Shown one piece after another: positions 17,838-25,633 of a stretch of DNA of 42,632 nucleotides. The stretch lies in assembly GCA_013151775.1 (NCBI GenBank), contig JAADHO010000052.1:1-42632 (forward strand), given 5' to 3'. Positions within the stretch are counted from its first letter, which is position 1; each line of letters starts with the position of its first letter. The position numbers were made by a program, and so were the translations under genes. The notes below the pieces were generated by a model. It did not search any database. It had not been told where the DNA came from and worked only from the letters and a program-made list of their open reading frames with translations. Source of the stretch: Deltaproteobacteria bacterium (GTDB taxonomy: Bacteria > Myxococcota_A > Polyangia > Polyangiales > Houyiibacteriaceae).

Positions 17838-18395
17838 GTGAAAAAATCCCTCAGCCTCTCCACCCTCGCAGCCGCTGCTACCGCACTCGCTCTAATCTTC
17901 GCCATGGGCCTCTACGCGGGGTATCAACACGTTCAGACCGGGGTCTCCTGGGAGAGCCTGTTCTTCACCCACGCCTGGCACGTCATCGCCCTCACCGCAA
18001 CGGTCGAGGTCGTGCTGGTGGTCGCCCTGCGAACCACGGTCTCGGACCCCATCCGCCGAGTGAACAAACACCTCTACGGAGTGGCCACGGGTCACGTGAA
18101 GCCGCTGGTGCTGTCGTCACAGGTGGAAGAGGTGGAGGAGCTCGTCAGTGGCGTGAACGCCATGGTCAAGCGCCTCGAGATGAGCCGCGATGAAGACGCC
18201 TTGCAGCGCTCAGACGAAGATCTCGCAGCCCTCGCCGAGCTGGTGCAGCGACTCGACCCGGACAACGGTGAGGCCATGGTGCGCCTCTCGCGTCTGGAGC
18301 GCGCTCTCTCGAGCGTACCCCGTCCGTCGAGCTACCCGCCGAAGCTACCGCAGGCGAACGAGGTCGTGGACTATCGCCTCGCCGCCCTCGTCTGA
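17838..18395 (+). CDS. Membrane HAMP-domain protein without an output domain
   Basis: 185 residues. GTG start with GAGGAG 7 bases upstream. Two membrane segments (about 8-28 and 46-66) enclose a periplasmic loop of under 20 residues. A HAMP-like helix pair follows (SDPIRRVNKHLYGVATGHVKPLV, VEEVEELVSGVNAMVKRLEMS). The C-terminal 70 residues look like a coiled coil or linker with no kinase, cyclase or methyl-accepting domain. It may pass a membrane signal to a partner, or be a regulatory partner of NhaA. First gene of a block behind a sigma-54 promoter; 15 bases before nhaA. Confidence 0.72.
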   Translation: MKKSLSLSTLAAAATALALIFAMGLYAGYQHVQTGVSWESLFFTHAWHVIALTATVEVVLVVALRTTVSDPIRRVNKHLYGVATGHVKPLVLSSQVEEVEELVSGVNAMVKRLEMSRDEDALQRSDEDLAALAELVQRLDPDNGEAMVRLSRLERALSSVPRPSSYPPKLPQANEVVDYRLAALV

Positions 18396-18410: not shown

Positions 18411-19649
18411 ATGAACAAGCTCGCACACAGAGGCTTGCGCCTGCTCTCGGAATTCTCCATTCCGCTCATCTCCGGTGTGGTCGTGGCGCTCATCTGGGCC
18501 AACGTCGCACCCGAGAGCCACGAGGCCCTGCTGCGCTGGTCGCCGCTCACCGATCTGGGCGTCGACGGCGTGGAGTGGCTGGACTTTCACTTCCTCGTGA
18601 ACGACGTCTTCATGGCGTTCTTCTTCGGCATCGCCACCAAGGAGATCGTCGAGAGCGTCCTACCCGGCGGCGCCCTCAATCCCCCACGGAAGGCGGTCAA
18701 CCCACTGTTGGCCACGCTCGGTGGCGTGCTCGGACCGATCGCCGTCTACCTGGTCTTCGTGTTGATTCGTGGCGACGGCTCCCTCACCCATGGTTGGGGC
18801 ATCCCCACGGCCACGGACATCGCCCTGGCGTGGCTCGTGGCGCGCATGGTCTTCGGCAAGGGTCACCCTGCCGTCAGCTTCTTGTTGCTGCTCGCGGTGG
18901 CGGATGACGCCATCGGGCTCGGCATCATCGCGGTGTTCTATCCCGATCCAGCGCACCCCGTTCAGCCCCTGTGGCTGGTGGCCGTGCTGGCCGGCATGCT
19001 CGCCGCCGGTGGCCTCAACAAGCTGAACGTCAAGAGCCCGTGGCTCTACCTGATCGGGCCCGGCGTGCTGTCCTGGTATGCGCTCCACTCCGCGCATCTG
19101 CACCCCGCCCTGGCGCTGGTGGCCATCGTGCCCTTCATGCCCCACGCGACTCACGACGAAGGCCTCTTCGTACACCAGGACGGCGCTCCTCAACAACGCG
19201 ACACCTTGAACAACTTCGAGCGCGCGTTCCGCCTGCCCGTCGACTTGGGGCTCTTCGCCTTCGGTCTGGCCAACGCCGCCGTGCCGCTCTCCGGTGTGGG
19301 CGACGCCACGATCGCGGTGCTGGTCGCGCTGCTGGTCGGCAAGACCTTCGGCATCTTCGGCTTCAGTCTGCTGGCGGAGCGCTTCGGCTTCCCGCTGCCG
19401 CAGGGCATGAACCGACGCAGCCTGTTCGTCGCGGGCATAACCGGCGCCCTCGGGCTGACGGTCGCACTCTTCGTGGCGGGAGTCGCCTTCACCGATCCGG
19501 GCCTGATGGGCGCGGCGAAGATGGGCGCCCTCGGCAGCGCCATCGCCGCCCCTGTGGCGCTGATCGCGGGTCGTCTGCTACGAGTACGCGAGGTCGACGC
19601 TGTGGCGAAGACTGAAAATCAGGGACCAGTCGTCGGCGCGGCGGCTTAG
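18411..19649 (+). CDS. nhaA: Na+/H+ antiporter NhaA
   Basis: 412 residues, multi-pass, the family length. NhaA exports Na+ (or Li+) in exchange for two H+ across the inner membrane. The catalytic aspartates are seen as VADDAIGLG (D165, D166), and the conserved TATDIA lies at 133-138. The N-terminal SGVVVALIWAN and the NDVFMAFFFGIATKEI segment are typical. The C-terminal tail after residue 395 is slightly long and Lys/Glu/Gln-containing. Its place in a sigma-54 block with periplasmic metal and redox proteins suggests a stress-response role rather than housekeeping. Confidence 0.93.
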   Translation: MNKLAHRGLRLLSEFSIPLISGVVVALIWANVAPESHEALLRWSPLTDLGVDGVEWLDFHFLVNDVFMAFFFGIATKEIVESVLPGGALNPPRKAVNPLLATLGGVLGPIAVYLVFVLIRGDGSLTHGWGIPTATDIALAWLVARMVFGKGHPAVSFLLLLAVADDAIGLGIIAVFYPDPAHPVQPLWLVAVLAGMLAAGGLNKLNVKSPWLYLIGPGVLSWYALHSAHLHPALALVAIVPFMPHATHDEGLFVHQDGAPQQRDTLNNFERAFRLPVDLGLFAFGLANAAVPLSGVGDATIAVLVALLVGKTFGIFGFSLLAERFGFPLPQGMNRRSLFVAGITGALGLTVALFVAGVAFTDPGLMGAAKMGALGSAIAAPVALIAGRLLRVREVDAVAKTENQGPVVGAAA

Positions 19650-19738: not shown

Positions 19739-20275
19739 GTGAAGAACACAACCTCATCCCTGGCTGTGGTCGGGCTCTTGGTCCTGATGGGCTGCTCCGA
19801 CAGCTCCGACGCTCCTGCCGCCCCCGAGACCGCATCCGAACCCAGCGCAGAGGCACCGAGCGCAGGGCCAGCGAGCGCGGCGCTCGACAGCGTGTTCTCT
19901 GAATACGAGCAGATCCGTGACGCGTTGGTGCGAGACGAAGCGTCGCAGATCGCCGCGGCAGCCACCCGCATCCACGACCAAGCCCAAGGCATCCACACGC
20001 CCGCGCTGCAGGCGCGCATGACCGAAGTGGCGAGCGCCGCCGAGGCACTCTCCCAAGCCGACGCCGCCGATCTCCCGGCCGTGCGCCGCGCCTTCGGAGC
20101 GCTCAGTCAGCCGCTGGTGGCGCTGCTCGACGAGAACGCCGAGCTCGCGAGTAACCGATACGTCTTCGAGTGTCCCATGGCCGAAGGCTATGGCCGCTGG
20201 ATCCAGCCGACCGAAGAGCTGCAGAACCCCTACATGGGTACGATGCAGCCGACCTGCGGCCAGGCTGTCCCTTGA
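19739..20275 (+). CDS. DUF3347-type lipoprotein
   Basis: 178 residues. GTG start with GGAG about 8 bases upstream. Lipobox LVLMGC; Ser/Ala/Pro linker; then a helical domain (EYEQIRDALVRDEASQIAAAA.RIHD..) ending in the conserved FECPMAEGYGRWIQPTEELQNPYMGTMQPTCG, the signature of DUF3347. That domain occurs in efflux-pump periplasmic proteins and other copper- or metal-linked envelope proteins; the terminal Cys-Pro-Met and Met-x-x-x-Cys-Gly are plausible metal ligands. Fourth-kilobase member of the block 17838-23842, following nhaA after 89 bases that hold a direct repeat. Confidence 0.76.
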   Translation: MKNTTSSLAVVGLLVLMGCSDSSDAPAAPETASEPSAEAPSAGPASAALDSVFSEYEQIRDALVRDEASQIAAAATRIHDQAQGIHTPALQARMTEVASAAEALSQADAADLPAVRRAFGALSQPLVALLDENAELASNRYVFECPMAEGYGRWIQPTEELQNPYMGTMQPTCGQAVP

Positions 20276-20345: not shown

Positions 20346-21685
20346 ATGAGTCGCGAACCGGGTCTCTACTTGCGTCAGGGGAGCCGCTCGGCTCTGGGCC
20401 GTGTTGCGCTCTACCTGTTGATCGTGCTCTCGCCCTTGGCCTTCGCCTTCGCCGCGCAGGCCGAGACGGATCATCCGCTGCTCCAAGAGATCGCGAAAGG
20501 GCTCGCGCTCACGGCCTTCGCCATCGTGGCGCTGCAGCCGGTCTTGGCCGCCCGCTACCGCTGGGTCGAGCGACCCTTCGGCCAGGACACGCTCTACCGC
20601 TTCCACCGCAACATGGGCATGTTCGCCGGTGTGCTGCTGCTCGCGCACCCGATCCTCTACGCCGCCGGGGGTGAGTGGGATCTGCTCTACAGCTTCGAGG
20701 GAGGCTGGGAGGTGGCCCTCGGTCGGGTCGCCTTGCTCGCGCTCGTCGGCATCATCCTGACGTCGGTCTTCCGGACGTCCATGCGACTCGACTTCGAGAC
20801 CTGGCGCGGCGTCCACAACGGCCTGGCGCTCAGCCTGCTCGTGCTCGGTTTCGTGCACAGCGTGGCCGCGGGCGGAGACTTGAGCGAGTGGCCCATGCGC
20901 CTGGTCGGGCTGATGCTCTTCTCCCTCGGCTTCGTGAGCCAGCTGGCGCACTTCCGCTCGGTGCACAGCCGAGAGCACGCGACGGAGTTCGTGGTCGTCC
21001 GCGTGACCCCGGAGACCGCCGACGTGTGCAGCCTCGAGCTGAAGCCGGCGAGACCCGAGCTCGGGATCGACCATCTGCCAGGCCAATTCCTCTTTCTCAC
21101 CCTGCACCGGGAGTCGGGACCGACCGAGGAGCATCCCTTCAGCATCGCCTCCGCTCCGTCCAGAGACGGCCACGTGACGGCGACCATCAAGGCCTCCGGA
21201 GACTTCACGCGCAGCATCCGCGACACCGAGGTCGGCGATCGTGCGTGCGTGCGCCCTTCGGTCGCTTCTCACACCTGCTGCACGACGAGCAGGATCCGAT
21301 GGTCTTCGTCGCGGGCGGCGTGGGCGTCACACCCATGCTCAGCATGCTGCGACACATGCACCAAGAAGGCAGCGACCGCTCCGTGCTCTTGCTCTACGGC
21401 AACCGCACGCAGGCGGACATCGTGGCGCGCGCCGAGCTGGATGAGATCGCGGCGTCGGGCAAACCCTCGCTGCGGGTGGTGCACGTCTTGAGCAAGGCTG
21501 ACGCGAGCTGGCAGGGGGAGACCGGGCGCATCGACTGCGGCTGCATCGAGCGACACGCGGGTGGACTCGACGACAGAGCCTTCTACGTGAGCGGACCTCC
21601 CATGATGATCGACGCCGTGGTGCGCACACTGCGCGAGTCGGGCGTGCCGGATCGCCACATTCACTTCGAGCGCTTTTCCCTATGA
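20346..21685 (+). pseudogene. Ferric-reductase-like flavocytochrome with a frameshift (about 446 aa if restored)
   Basis: Starts at ATG 20346. The N-terminal half is a ferric-reductase-like membrane domain with several helices and conserved His (YRFHRNMGMFAGVLLLAHPILY, GVHNGLALSLLVLGFVHS), heme-binding in the family. An FAD-binding barrel (DHLPGQFLFL, EEHPFSIASAPS) and NAD-binding domain (VFVAGGVGVTPMLSMLRHM, FYVSGPPMMID) follow. The frame breaks near 21242-21254, inside the tetranucleotide run CGTGCGTGCGTGCG: the first part is read in one frame, the rest in the -1 frame. One more CGTG unit would restore GDRACVRAPFGRF, exactly the expected spacing to the conserved PFGRF. So it is either a phase-variable gene, a broken gene, or a sequencing error. 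The predicted role is transmembrane electron transfer to metal ions or quinones. Confidence 0.75.
21243..21256 (+). repeat. Tetranucleotide run at the frameshift
   Basis: Three CGTG-type units in a row (gatCGTGCGTGCGTGCGccc). The run lies exactly where the flavocytochrome reading frame changes by -1, and gaining one unit restores the family's spacing. Coordinates are within a few bases. Confidence 0.6.
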
Positions 21686-21710: not shown

Positions 21711-22244
21711 ATGAAGAGGACGAAGAGCGCGATGCTCGCCACCCTGGCTGTCATGCTGCTCACGACCACGGGGGTGGTGGCCCTGGCCTTGGTCCGGGCT
21801 GACGGAAGCGAAGCCGGCGAACACGGACACGGCGAGGCCGGCGAGGCCGATGAGGCCGGTGGACACGGCGAGGCCGGCGAGGCCGGTGGACACGACGAGG
21901 CCGACGAGGCCGGTGGACACGGCGAGGTCGGCGAGGCCGGTGGACACGACGAGGCCGACGAGGCCGGTGGACACGGCGAGGCCGGCGAGGCCGGTGGACA
22001 CGACGAGGCCGACGAGGTCGAGGTCGACGGGACCGAGGTCGGGGAAGAGGGAGAGCTCGAATCGGGTGACACCGGCTCTCCGACGGGCGCCGCACTCCCT
22101 CGAGGTGTCGCCCCGCCCGAGCCGACGGAGCCGACGGAGCAGCACGACCCCGGGGTTCGCGGGCGCGGAGCTTCGCACTCCGGTTCGGGCGACCACCGCA
22201 GGCGGCGACCCTCGAAGAACCACGGTTCGTCGAGCCACAACTGA
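21711..22244 (+). CDS. Exported His/Glu/Gly-rich repeat protein
   Basis: 177 residues with AAGGAG 8 bases before the ATG. Signal peptide or single membrane segment (residues 7-29), then a region of six 9-residue repeats GGHxEAxEA alternating Gly-Gly-His-Gly-Glu and Gly-Gly-His-Asp-Glu forms. The C-terminus is basic and Ser/His-rich. Repeating His and Glu residues are a plausible low-affinity metal (Ni, Zn, Cu) or proton buffer in the periplasm. I know no named family. It is located in the sigma-54 block between the flavocytochrome and the membrane synthetase. Confidence 0.66.
   Translation: MKRTKSAMLATLAVMLLTTTGVVALALVRADGSEAGEHGHGEAGEADEAGGHGEAGEAGGHDEADEAGGHGEVGEAGGHDEADEAGGHGEAGEAGGHDEADEVEVDGTEVGEEGELESGDTGSPTGAALPRGVAPPEPTEPTEQHDPGVRGRGASHSGSGDHRRRRPSKNHGSSSHN
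21858..22019 (+). repeat. Six 27-bp coding repeats (three 54-bp doublets)
   Basis: 162 bases = 6 x 27. Units code GGHGEAGEA, GGHDEADEA, GGHGEVGEA, GGHDEADEA, GGHGEAGEA, GGHDEADEV, alternating G- and D-forms, so the array grew as 54-base doublets. Length variation between strains would be in frame. Confidence 0.85.
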
Positions 22245-22272: not shown

Positions 22273-22325
22273 ATGAGTCTGGCACGCTACCTGCACGAGC
22301 CGCGCGCATGAGGTTCGCAGGGTGA
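22273..22325 (+). other. Two tiny overlapping leader ORFs before the synthetase gene
   Basis: ATG at 22273 opens 12 codons ending at TGA 22309-22311, which overlaps the ATG at 22308. That second start opens five codons ending at TGA 22323-22325, which overlaps the GTG start of the synthetase at 22322. Both junctions are ATGA or GTGA overlaps. The chain could couple translation; it may also be chance in GC-rich sequence. Confidence 0.3.
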
Positions 22326-23842
22326 TACGGAAAGTGCCCACTCGGGGGATGCCCTTGGGGTGGCGCGTGGGCATCGCCACGGGCATCGCCGTCACCATCG
22401 CCATGGGACCGGTCGCGATCTTCCAAGGCAGCCTCGCCCGAGACGCCGCCATGGCCGAACGCACCCAGACGCTGCGGCTGGTGGCGGCGCCGCTGGTCAC
22501 GGACCTGGAGCACGCCGGCGGGCCCGCCGAGGTGCAGATGGCCTTGGCCAGGTTCCGCCAAGCCTTCGTTCACCGAGGGCTGCCCGTGCCCGAGGTCGAG
22601 CTCGAGCCCGGCGGGCCCGATCCCGGCGATGATCCACCGGCGAGCCTGAGCTTGCCCGTCTCGGTCGCGAGCCTCGCGGGAGGCCGAGGCACGCTGCGGC
22701 TGACGATGCCTGCGAGCCTGATGGTGCGTCGAGATCGTGAGGCGCTCGCGGGCTGGGCGCTGCACCTGCTCGCGACCTTGACCGTAGTGATCACCTTCCT
22801 GCTGGTGGTGCTGCGCTACTTGGTGGTGCGCCCGCTCGCGAGGTTGGTGGACGCGGCGCGCAAGATGGAGATGGGCTACTGGCACGCGGTGCGCGATCCC
22901 GGCGGGGCGTGGGAGGTCCGCTGGCTCGCATGGCGCTTCTCCGAAATGGGCCGTCAGCTCGATCTGGCCGTGAAGAATCTCGTGCACGCGGAGCGCGCTG
23001 GAGCGTTGGCGGCGCCGAGCAGCCCCGAAGACGCGCCCGACTGCGACGCCTGTGAGTCCGCCGCCCCGACGACGGAAGCCAGCGCGGACACGCAGAACGC
23101 CCACTACGACGCAGCGGCCGACGCAGTGGATGTCGCCAACGCCAGAGCGCAGCGGCGCGAGCAGGACGCGGTGCTGCGCCGACTCCGAGGCGTGTCCGAG
23201 CGGCTCGCCCACGGGCTGGCGGCCGGCACACCCGATCTGAAGCTCGCCCGAGTCACGTGGGACGAGCACGCTTCGGAGGCCGAGCGACGCGGCGACATGG
23301 GCTTGGCGGCGCTGCTCGAAGACCTGGCGTTTCGGACGCTGCACCCGGACACCTACGCCGAGCTAGAGCTGTCGCTGCACCTCGGGCGAGAACGGCGAAG
23401 TCTGTGGGTGAAGCTGCAAGGACGCGCCCTCGAGCGCCTGCTCGAAGACGCCGGCTGCCCGGCGCTGACGGTGAAGCATCGCGTGAAGAGCACGGCCAGC
23501 GTCTACCGAAAGATGCAGGCCAAAGGTCTCGAGCTAGACGAGGTGCACGACCTCTTCGCGTTTCGTGTCGTCGTGCCCCGGGAGCAGGACTGCTACCTAG
23601 CTCTCGGCGTCATCCACCGCTCCTTCGAGCCCCTGCTCGGGCGCTTCTCGGACTACATCGCGTCTCCCAAGCCGAGCGGATATCAGAGCCTCCACACCAT
23701 CGTTCGCCCGCTGGATCCTGGAGCGCCGATCTTCGAGATCCAGATCCGCTCCGAGGCGATGCACACGCTCGCCGAGTCCGGATCCGCGGCGCATTGGCGC
23801 TACAAGCGCGAGCCCATCACGCACGCCGAGCTGGACCTGTGA
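22322..23842 (+). CDS. Membrane-bound HAMP-RelA/SpoT (p)ppGpp synthetase
   Basis: 506 residues from GTG 22322 with GAGG 8 bases upstream; GTG 22334 and ATG 22349 are alternatives. Order: membrane helix 1 (about 13-33), periplasmic domain of about 105 residues, helix 2 (about 142-166), HAMP-like segment (167-215), linker, then a RelA/SpoT synthetase domain (about 325-495). The synthetase has the expected residues: HRVKS with R387 and K389, VHDLFAFR with D410, PSGYQSLHT with Y454, FEIQIRS with E472, and the closing ESGSAAHWRYK. LEDLAFRTLHPDTYAEL (332-348) matches the segment that follows the HD hydrolase in long RSH proteins; no HD, TGS or ACT domain is seen. So it looks like a synthetase whose hydrolase half was replaced by a transmembrane HAMP sensor. 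It would make pppGpp/ppGpp from GTP/GDP and ATP in response to an envelope signal. Last gene of the sigma-54 block. Confidence 0.85.
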   Translation: MIRKVPTRGMPLGWRVGIATGIAVTIAMGPVAIFQGSLARDAAMAERTQTLRLVAAPLVTDLEHAGGPAEVQMALARFRQAFVHRGLPVPEVELEPGGPDPGDDPPASLSLPVSVASLAGGRGTLRLTMPASLMVRRDREALAGWALHLLATLTVVITFLLVVLRYLVVRPLARLVDAARKMEMGYWHAVRDPGGAWEVRWLAWRFSEMGRQLDLAVKNLVHAERAGALAAPSSPEDAPDCDACESAAPTTEASADTQNAHYDAAADAVDVANARAQRREQDAVLRRLRGVSERLAHGLAAGTPDLKLARVTWDEHASEAERRGDMGLAALLEDLAFRTLHPDTYAELELSLHLGRERRSLWVKLQGRALERLLEDAGCPALTVKHRVKSTASVYRKMQAKGLELDEVHDLFAFRVVVPREQDCYLALGVIHRSFEPLLGRFSDYIASPKPSGYQSLHTIVRPLDPGAPIFEIQIRSEAMHTLAESGSAAHWRYKREPITHAELDL

Positions 23843-24397: not shown

Positions 24398-24832
24398 GTG
24401 AGAGATTCGGCACAGACCACTACCCTGACGATCGGAAAGATCGCGCGGAGCGCCGGCGTGGGCGTGGAGACCATCCGCTTCTACGAGCGCGAGAAGCTCT
24501 TGCCAGAGCCGGCTCGCGATCCCTCGAGCGGATACCGGCGATACACGGAGAGCACGATCTCGCGGCTCCAGTTCATCGCGCGAGCCAAGGAGCTTGGGTT
24601 CACTCTGCGCGAGACGCGTGAACTTCTGGACCTTCGCGCCGGCTCGGCGACCTGCGGGACGCTCCGCTCGCGGGCGGAGGAGAAGCTCGATGACATACGG
24701 CGCCGAATTCAGGACTTGCGACGCATCGAGCAGGCGCTGCTGACGCTCTCCGAGGCCTGCCCCGGCGCGGGTGGACTCGAGGCCTGCCCGATCCTAGCCG
24801 CGCTCGAAGGAGGATTCGGCGATGCGGGTTGA
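24398..24832 (+). CDS. merR: MerR-family metal-responsive regulator
   Basis: 144 residues. GTG start with GGAGG 4 bases upstream. An N-terminal winged helix (TIGKIARSAGVGVETIRFYEREKLLPEP) and the RYTESTISRLQFI segment are classic MerR. The metal site is plausible: Cys in SATCG, then CPGAGGLEACPIL, which matches the three-Cys arrangement of mercury-type MerR (Hg bound by one Cys of one subunit and two of the other). It autoregulates from the operator just upstream and would also drive merC and the thioredoxin-like gene, whose starts overlap the preceding stops. Other soft metals (Zn, Pb, Cd) cannot be excluded. Confidence 0.85.
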   Translation: MRDSAQTTTLTIGKIARSAGVGVETIRFYEREKLLPEPARDPSSGYRRYTESTISRLQFIARAKELGFTLRETRELLDLRAGSATCGTLRSRAEEKLDDIRRRIQDLRRIEQALLTLSEACPGAGGLEACPILAALEGGFGDAG

Positions 24833-25370
24833 GAACGCGTCGGCCACCCTGCATCGATCCGTCGCAGCTCCCGGCTCGGATGGCAGCGGCTTCTCGTGGC
24901 GGCGTCTTGGCGCAGCGGTCCCGAGCGTGGCCTTCGGCCTGCTCCCCAAGATCGCGTGTCCGGCGTGTTGGCCCGCGTACGCCGGTGTGCTCAGTAGCTT
25001 CGGGGTGTCCTTCCTGATCGACGCTCGCTACCTCTTCGCGCTCACCGCGGCGTTCCTCGCCGTCGCGCTCTTCTTCCTCGGCTTTCGTGCGCATCGGCGG
25101 CGGGGCTACGGCCCACTCATGGTCGGGAGCGTGGCCTCCGCGGTGTTGCTGATCGGCAAGTTCTACCTCGAGAGCGACCCCGCGATGTTCAGCGGCGTGG
25201 GCCTGCTGATGGGCGCCTCATTCTGGAATTCGTGGCCTCGCAGGCTGGCCACATCGCCTGCGTGTTCGGTGTGTGAGCCGTCCGCGGAGGTCAGGTCGTG
25301 CTGTGACGCGACGACATCCCCACCCGCGACCGCGTGCTGCGAGTCGCCCACACAAGGAGAATCATCATGA
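24822..25370 (+). CDS. merC: MerC-like membrane mercury/metal transporter with Cys-rich tail
   Basis: 182 residues. ATG at 24822 lies inside merR's 3' end (11-base overlap). The protein has four membrane helices and KIACPACWPAYAGVLSSFG in the first, the paired-Cys helix of MerC. YGPLMVGSVASAVL and SGVGLLMGASFWNSW are the other conserved helices. A C-terminal extension of about 45 residues carries at least six Cys (CSVCEP, CCDATT, ACCES) and is unusual for MerC. It would move Hg(II) or another thiol-binding metal into the cell, and the tail may pass it on. Its stop overlaps the next start (ATGA). Confidence 0.82.
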   Translation: MRVENASATLHRSVAAPGSDGSGFSWRRLGAAVPSVAFGLLPKIACPACWPAYAGVLSSFGVSFLIDARYLFALTAAFLAVALFFLGFRAHRRRGYGPLMVGSVASAVLLIGKFYLESDPAMFSGVGLLMGASFWNSWPRRLATSPACSVCEPSAEVRSCCDATTSPPATACCESPTQGESS

Positions 25371-25633
25371 GTCAACGTCAGATCGAGATCTTCAGCGCCG
25401 GATGTGCCGCGTGCAGCGACACCATCGAATTGGTCCACAGCATGGTCTGCGGGTCATGCTCGGTGGAGGTCCTCGACATGCATGACGCCGAGGTCGCTGC
25501 TCGAGCACGCGACCTGGGAATTCGCTCCGTCCCTGCCGTCGTGGTCGACGGCAAGGTCGCAGACTGCTGCGCATCTCGCGCGGTCGACGAAGGCACGCTC
25601 CGCGCCGCAGGAGTCGGTCAGCCCACGACCTGA
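25367..25633 (+). CDS. Thioredoxin/glutaredoxin-fold small protein of the mer operon
   Basis: 88 residues from ATG 25367, overlapping merC's stop. The sequence IEIFSAGCAACSDTIELV has a CxxC at the first helix, then MVCGSCSVEVLDM, a second CxxC, and GIRSVPAVVVDGKVADCC with the cis-Pro motif of the thioredoxin fold. Similar small proteins occur in mer-type operons, where they may accept or reduce a metal-thiol complex. It is not a classical MerP, which has a GMTCxxC helix and a different fold. Six Cys residues in 88 suggest metal binding. Confidence 0.75.
   Translation: MSQRQIEIFSAGCAACSDTIELVHSMVCGSCSVEVLDMHDAEVAARARDLGIRSVPAVVVDGKVADCCASRAVDEGTLRAAGVGQPTT

Follow-up and report, generated by a model that had tools for sequence, protein, structure and literature searches.

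A membrane HAMP segment joined to a RelA/SpoT synthetase domain in a rare protein family

Control of (p)ppGpp, a starvation alarm signal, is known mainly through cytosolic inputs: the state of the ribosome, carrier proteins and the transcription of small synthetases. The 42,632-nucleotide stretch analysed here (the window) carries a gene that raises the question of whether a (p)ppGpp synthetase can also take its input from a receptor in its own chain. The first-pass annotation read the product as a membrane sensor with a HAMP segment fused to a synthetase. Profile searches, hydropathy, an AlphaFold2 model and six relatives all bear out this build. The protein, here called HAMP-RSH, is an RSH synthetase with a membrane-receptor input, a real but rare receptor type. 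Its reading frame opens with a GTG at 22322, with a GAGG about 10 bases 5' of it, and ends with the stop at 23842. The gene and the parts of its product are as follows.

22322..23842, + strand: HAMP-RSH gene, whose 506-aa product joins a membrane sensor to a RelA_SpoT synthetase
22358..22426, + strand: first TM helix, approximately residues 13-35 (hydropathy maximum at 16-34, score 2.02)
22427..22747, + strand: periplasmic sensor segment, residues about 36-142 (~107 residues), alpha-alpha-beta-beta-beta in the model
22754..22816, + strand: second TM helix, approximately residues 145-165 (hydropathy maximum at 146-164, score 2.58)
22814..22990, + strand: HAMP region, residues 165-223 (59 residues in 7 of 7 relatives; NarQ profile E 1.3e-4)
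22991..23182, + strand: low-complexity tether, residues 224-287 (39-65 residues in relatives; pLDDT < 50 at 229-266)
23138..23341, + strand: C3HB-like helices, approximately residues 273-340 (7oiw_A 135-350 is the counterpart of modelled residues 274-493)
23342..23809, + strand: (p)ppGpp synthetase domain, residues 341-496, with PF04607 at 386-496 (profiles, structure match)

Domain order of the HAMP-RSH protein

From the N-terminus, the order is TM1, periplasmic segment, TM2, HAMP, tether, C3HB and RelA_SpoT synthetase. The two membrane helices originally placed around a periplasmic domain coincide with the two hydropathy peaks, and the stretch ahead of TM1 has a net charge of +4 and is predicted to be cytosolic. 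The predicted topology places the N-terminus and the synthetase in the cytosol and the sensor segment in the periplasm. The AlphaFold2 model, built from a 7-row alignment (mean pLDDT 75, pTM 0.42), contains helices at 12-63, which covers TM1, 68-84, 131-183 and 197-229, three strands in the periplasmic segment (91-96, 108-113 and 123-128), a disordered stretch at 229-266, and then further helices and the synthetase fold.

Taken alone, the periplasmic segment has weak similarity to the sensor domains of ParS, WalK and CusS (Z 5.3-5.8). Since these matches tie with unrelated folds (ribosomal proteins), we claim no fold for this segment, and Foldseek gave no match for it at E < 0.001. The N-terminal half of the protein aligns with a WalK model at Z 10.5 and 9.8; because long helices contribute to this alignment, the match is only suggestive. 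The Pfam HAMP profile scores weakly on the window protein alone (14.7 bits against a cut-off of 25), but the NarQ, GepA and SiaA profiles align over its TM2-HAMP portion, the best relative scores E 1.7e-5, and the HAMP hallmarks P171, L172, L175 and E198, along with G185, are invariant in the seven relatives. With two TM helices and HAMP directly after TM2, the protein has the layout of a HAMP transmembrane receptor, with a sub-cut-off Pfam score in the window copy.

The C-terminal half is a clear synthetase. RelA_SpoT PF04607 matches with E 6.4e-36 (123.5 bits; cut-off 27), the TIGR00691 RSH profile matches residues 308-498, and E. coli RelA (PDB sequence) aligns with residues 309-496 at E 2e-36. 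The modelled residues 274-493 superpose on S. aureus Rel with Z 23.4 and rmsd 3.0 over 215 aligned residues. The PF04607 domain, together with this match to Rel and other long RSH structures, places HAMP-RSH in the RSH superfamily. The segment that normally follows HD, also said to be kept, is the C3HB three-helix element, which spans 135-195 in RelSeq numbering (HD 5-159, SYNTH 176-341; PMC7983052). These helices have been retained from long RSH. Profile searches of the 506-aa protein gave no match to HD, TGS or ACT, in agreement with the claimed absence of all three. Residues 1-270 are occupied by the TM, periplasmic, HAMP and tether parts, with no HD hydrolase domain, and the chain ends 10 residues past the synthetase domain, with no C-terminal TGS/ACT half.

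Relatives and domain-wise conservation

A family search for HAMP-RelA_SpoT builds had been proposed, and we ran it with residues 1-230 alone as the query against 379 genomes of the window's phylum. This recovered six further genes in five other genomes (two in G241 and one each in G284, G271, G198 and G308). Each of the six encodes a TM-periplasm-TM-HAMP-tether-synthetase fusion, 32-38% identical to the window protein. Profile searches of the 379 genomes, and of the orders and class to which the positive genomes belong, added no HAMP-RSH, and a whole-protein search of 145 nearer relatives also found none. The family is rare and patchy, occurring in 6 of 379 genomes within the one phylum searched. 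A scan of genome contigs with the window protein as single query returned only two ordinary RSH genes.

Two trivial origins were considered and rejected. An assembly chimera is contradicted by the presence of the same fusion in seven genes from six genomes, and also by a GC of 0.689, equal to that of the contig. A plasmid or phage origin was rejected on searches of plasmids and viral contigs: on plasmids, neither the N-terminal half nor a small HAMP protein encoded upstream (see below) had a match, and the whole protein had none at 80% coverage; viral contigs gave no match.

We built a tree on the synthetase domain alone, using the seven HAMP-RSH, 37 long-type RSH and one small synthetase. The seven domains form one clade (support 100/99) placed among the long RSH, and its stem measures 1.22 changes per site. 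A single clade is consistent with one fusion event and an origin from a long RSH. The clade appears to sit among the long RSH, but so long a stem leaves the identity of its closest sister group uncertain.

Conservation differs by domain. Mean identity in the seven is 50% in HAMP, which is constant at 59 residues, 48% in the synthetase and 43% in the C3HB-like part (53 residues in 7 of 7). It drops to 31% in the periplasmic segment, where few residues are invariant (e.g. E63 and F78), and to 23% in the tether. This pattern of identity and length indicates that HAMP, as the relay, and the enzyme are both kept by selection, whereas the tether is free to drift. It also bears on whether the protein senses anything, as TM-HAMP could serve solely to anchor and dimerise a constitutive membrane-tethered synthetase. 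The disordered, length-variable tether between HAMP and enzyme would fit such a protein, as would a periplasmic segment with no confident ligand-binding fold. However, HAMP is conserved at least as well as the enzyme, and a folded alpha/beta periplasmic segment with its invariant residues has been kept, so we consider constitutive synthesis improbable.

Five of the seven HAMP-RSH (L055, L057, L058, L059 and L060) carry a short C-terminal tail past the synthetase that is amphipathic and mostly basic, for example GLLGRLFPR or FWKSLVSGF. The window protein has no such tail.

The active site and other synthetases in the host genomes

The synthetase core was initially credited with a full catalytic set, which is slightly overstated. 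Eight residues (R387, K389, K397, D410, R415, K450, Y454 and E472) are indeed invariant in the 7 relatives and 36 long RSH. By correspondence with PMC7983052, the adenine-sandwiching pair of arginines is R387 and R415, the Mg/catalytic acids are D410 and E472, and the guanine-stacking Tyr is Y454. Two other positions are non-canonical. The guanosine-contact Asn, which is N306 in RelSeq and sits in a loop at the guanosine ring (PMC7983052), is Ser452 in the window protein; this position is Ser in 3 of 7 HAMP-RSH (window included), whereas the other four and every one of the 36 long RSH have Asn. The lysine of the RxKD motif is Ser443 in the window protein only, among the seven. Position 392 is Ala in all seven HAMP-RSH and mostly Tyr in long RSH.

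These substitutions could be read in two other ways. The protein may be an active pyrophosphokinase whose acceptor has been altered by the Asn to Ser change, such that it emits (p)ppApp, pGpp or modified RNA. Position 452 does belong to the guanosine-ring loop and departs from the Asn found throughout the long RSH, and RSH enzymes that use adenosine or tRNA acceptors exist (PMC12691689; PMC8832971). Against this, four of the seven keep Asn and all seven keep the stacking Tyr, which makes a family-wide change of product unlikely, and no antitoxin-like partner is seen. We regard an altered acceptor as unlikely overall. The second option is a pseudoenzyme, in which a dead synthetase would act as a binding module, for example by capturing or inhibiting the long RSH or by binding guanine nucleotides. 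S443 and S452 in the window protein and the long stem branch of the clade point in this direction. Yet eight invariant catalytic and nucleotide-binding residues at about 35% overall identity are not expected of a dead enzyme, and we give this option a low probability.

The first-pass annotation advised a check for a hydrolase encoded elsewhere, and the window genome has a long RSH of 716 aa on contig C121. As its HDVVED motif is intact and it also contains RFKD, it is probably bifunctional. The other five host genomes also each carry one or more RelA_SpoT genes of the long-RSH type besides HAMP-RSH. G271 has four RelA_SpoT genes: alongside its long RSH and HAMP-RSH it encodes a small synthetase of 195 aa and a divergent one of 368 aa, and this set includes loci L095 (C76) and L089 (C18). 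A genome of the same order, G103, encodes a shortened RSH (L093, G103 C1:7333500-7337500) that has a synthetase and ends in a TGS-like part but seems to lack an intact HD motif; this genome also carries other RSH genes.

Known systems, possible signalling and genomic surroundings

HAMP-RSH shares C3HB and synthetase with the long RSH (Rel, RelA, SpoT), mostly at 40-49% identity over about 190 residues in related genomes. Unlike them, it has no HD, TGS, helical, zinc-finger or ACT domains, has a membrane receptor half in front, and differs in the active-site region by A392 and, in part, S452. The small alarmone synthetases (RelQ, RelP, RelV) are similar in having a synthetase without a hydrolase, but HAMP-RSH keeps C3HB, resembles long RSH more closely in sequence and possesses TM, periplasmic and HAMP parts in addition. 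With 506 aa, a receptor half and C3HB, it is not a small alarmone synthetase, and it groups among the long RSH in a tree that includes one small synthetase. The HAMP histidine kinases NarQ, WalK and CusS resemble it in their two TM helices, periplasmic segment and HAMP, with similarity at both the profile and model level. Membrane diguanylate cyclases such as DgcN also have two TM helices, a periplasmic segment and HAMP. In these HAMP receptor enzymes the output is a kinase or GGDEF domain, whereas in HAMP-RSH it is a RelA_SpoT pyrophosphokinase.

The statement that long RSH are cytosolic and small synthetases sensorless needs qualifying, with two exceptions. The exported alarmone synthetases SaEAS and VpEAS combine a synthetase with an N-terminal membrane-targeting segment and are secreted via a signal peptide or secretion system (PMC12691689); in HAMP-RSH, by contrast, the predicted topology brings the enzyme back into the cytosol by way of the second TM helix and HAMP. 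The Ca2+-binding RSH of plants (Rsh4/CRSH; PMC3153485) has a dedicated sensor module, an EF-hand, joined to RSH, but it is a plant protein with a calcium-binding module and no membrane receptor. No description of a HAMP-RelA_SpoT protein was found in the literature searched, a coverage that excludes the 2020 toxSAS paper, and the words transmembrane and HAMP are absent from the Atkinson 2011 RSH classification with its 30 subgroups.

Judging from sequence and the predicted structure, we favour with moderate confidence a HAMP-RSH that acts as a membrane receptor with a stringent-response synthetase as its output. This is supported by the synthetase domain and its catalytic residues, the fold match to long RSH with C3HB, the TM helices with their charge pattern, the HAMP evidence, the single synthetase clade and the long-type RSH genes in every host genome. 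It is also supported by constraint on both HAMP and synthetase, HAMP and C3HB being constant in length, and by the recovery of six same-fusion relatives with the N-terminus alone. It is weakened by Ser at the guanosine-contact Asn in three of the seven and Ser443 for Lys in the window protein, as well as by the disordered tether of varying length, a periplasmic domain with no confident fold match and neighbours that are not common to most relatives.

Such a receptor would dimerise through HAMP, and a periplasmic signal would change the HAMP packing. The signal may be metal, redox or ion stress, judged solely from the neighbouring genes in the window. The change in HAMP would affect how the two tethered C3HB-synthetase units pair or how freely they move, and would thereby raise or lower the output of the product, presumably (p)ppGpp. 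With a tether this long, disordered and variable, HAMP is unlikely to act on the enzyme through a rigid coiled-coil relay; we favour a mechanism in which the enzyme units change their pairing or proximity over one based on a rigid rod. C3HB and synthetase would act in the cytosol, the site of ATP and GTP. The HAMP input would take the place of HD and the ribosome-sensing C-terminal half, with (p)ppGpp breakdown left to the cell's long RSH and its HD domain. Envelope-to-(p)ppGpp signalling of this kind could give extracellular conditions a direct route to the stringent response. A conserved receptor that includes the synthetase in its own chain would be for (p)ppGpp what membrane-bound diguanylate and adenylate cyclases are for their products, and would make it testable which outside signals directly raise (p)ppGpp. 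HAMP-RSH also offers a natural experiment on C3HB-synthetase control once HD and the C-terminal half are removed.

HAMP-RSH is the final gene of a co-directional run on the + strand that starts at 17838. The preceding genes are as follows.

17838..18395, + strand: small two-TM protein, 185 aa, with a HAMP-like region and HxWHV, without output domain; possible partner
18411..19649, + strand: NhaA-type Na+/H+ antiporter (PF06965 E 5e-58)
19739..20275, + strand: DUF3347 lipoprotein (PF11827 E 6.5e-8)
20346..21685, + strand: ferric-reductase-like FAD protein, frame broken near 21250 (PF01794 E 1e-14, PF08022)
21711..22244, + strand: gene immediately 5' of HAMP-RSH, for a small Gly/Glu/His-rich protein with a single membrane helix at its N-terminus

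No gene neighbourhood is common to most HAMP-RSH relatives, and four of their six contigs are shorter than 10 kb. In the window, the gene for the small HAMP protein lies 4 kb upstream of HAMP-RSH. A homologue in G241 (L055 3251-3817; 33% identity over 175 aa, E 3e-28) has its stop 4 nt ahead of the likely HAMP-RSH start. Strong matches occur in only 3 of 379 genomes, two of which hold HAMP-RSH (hypergeometric P 6e-4, or 0.026 without the window genome). The third copy, in G093, adjoins a multicopper-oxidase-like gene, named from sequence inspection. All three small HAMP proteins have HxWHV at the start of TM2, which at the membrane surface is a possible metal or haem site. The linkage, seen in two cases, is suggestive. 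The two proteins might form a module in which the small HAMP protein pairs with HAMP-RSH through HAMP and supplies or tunes the signal, such that extracellular metal, redox or ion stress would switch (p)ppGpp synthesis directly and independently of the ribosome; we consider this more elaborate arrangement doubtful.

The small HAMP family measures 174-188 aa over its three loci (window 17838-18395, L055 3251-3817 and L075 1786-2310). In the ferric-reductase-like FAD/NAD protein, the C-terminal part is in another frame from about 21250, due to either a gene frameshift or an assembly error. The protein at 21711-22244 had no family match and consists mostly of repeated Gly/Glu/Ala/His segments of the GGHGEAGEA type, which may bind metal. 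Beyond HAMP-RSH, a MerR regulator, a MerC-like membrane protein and a thioredoxin-like protein lie in a row at 24398-25633, a small cluster of the mercury/metal type.
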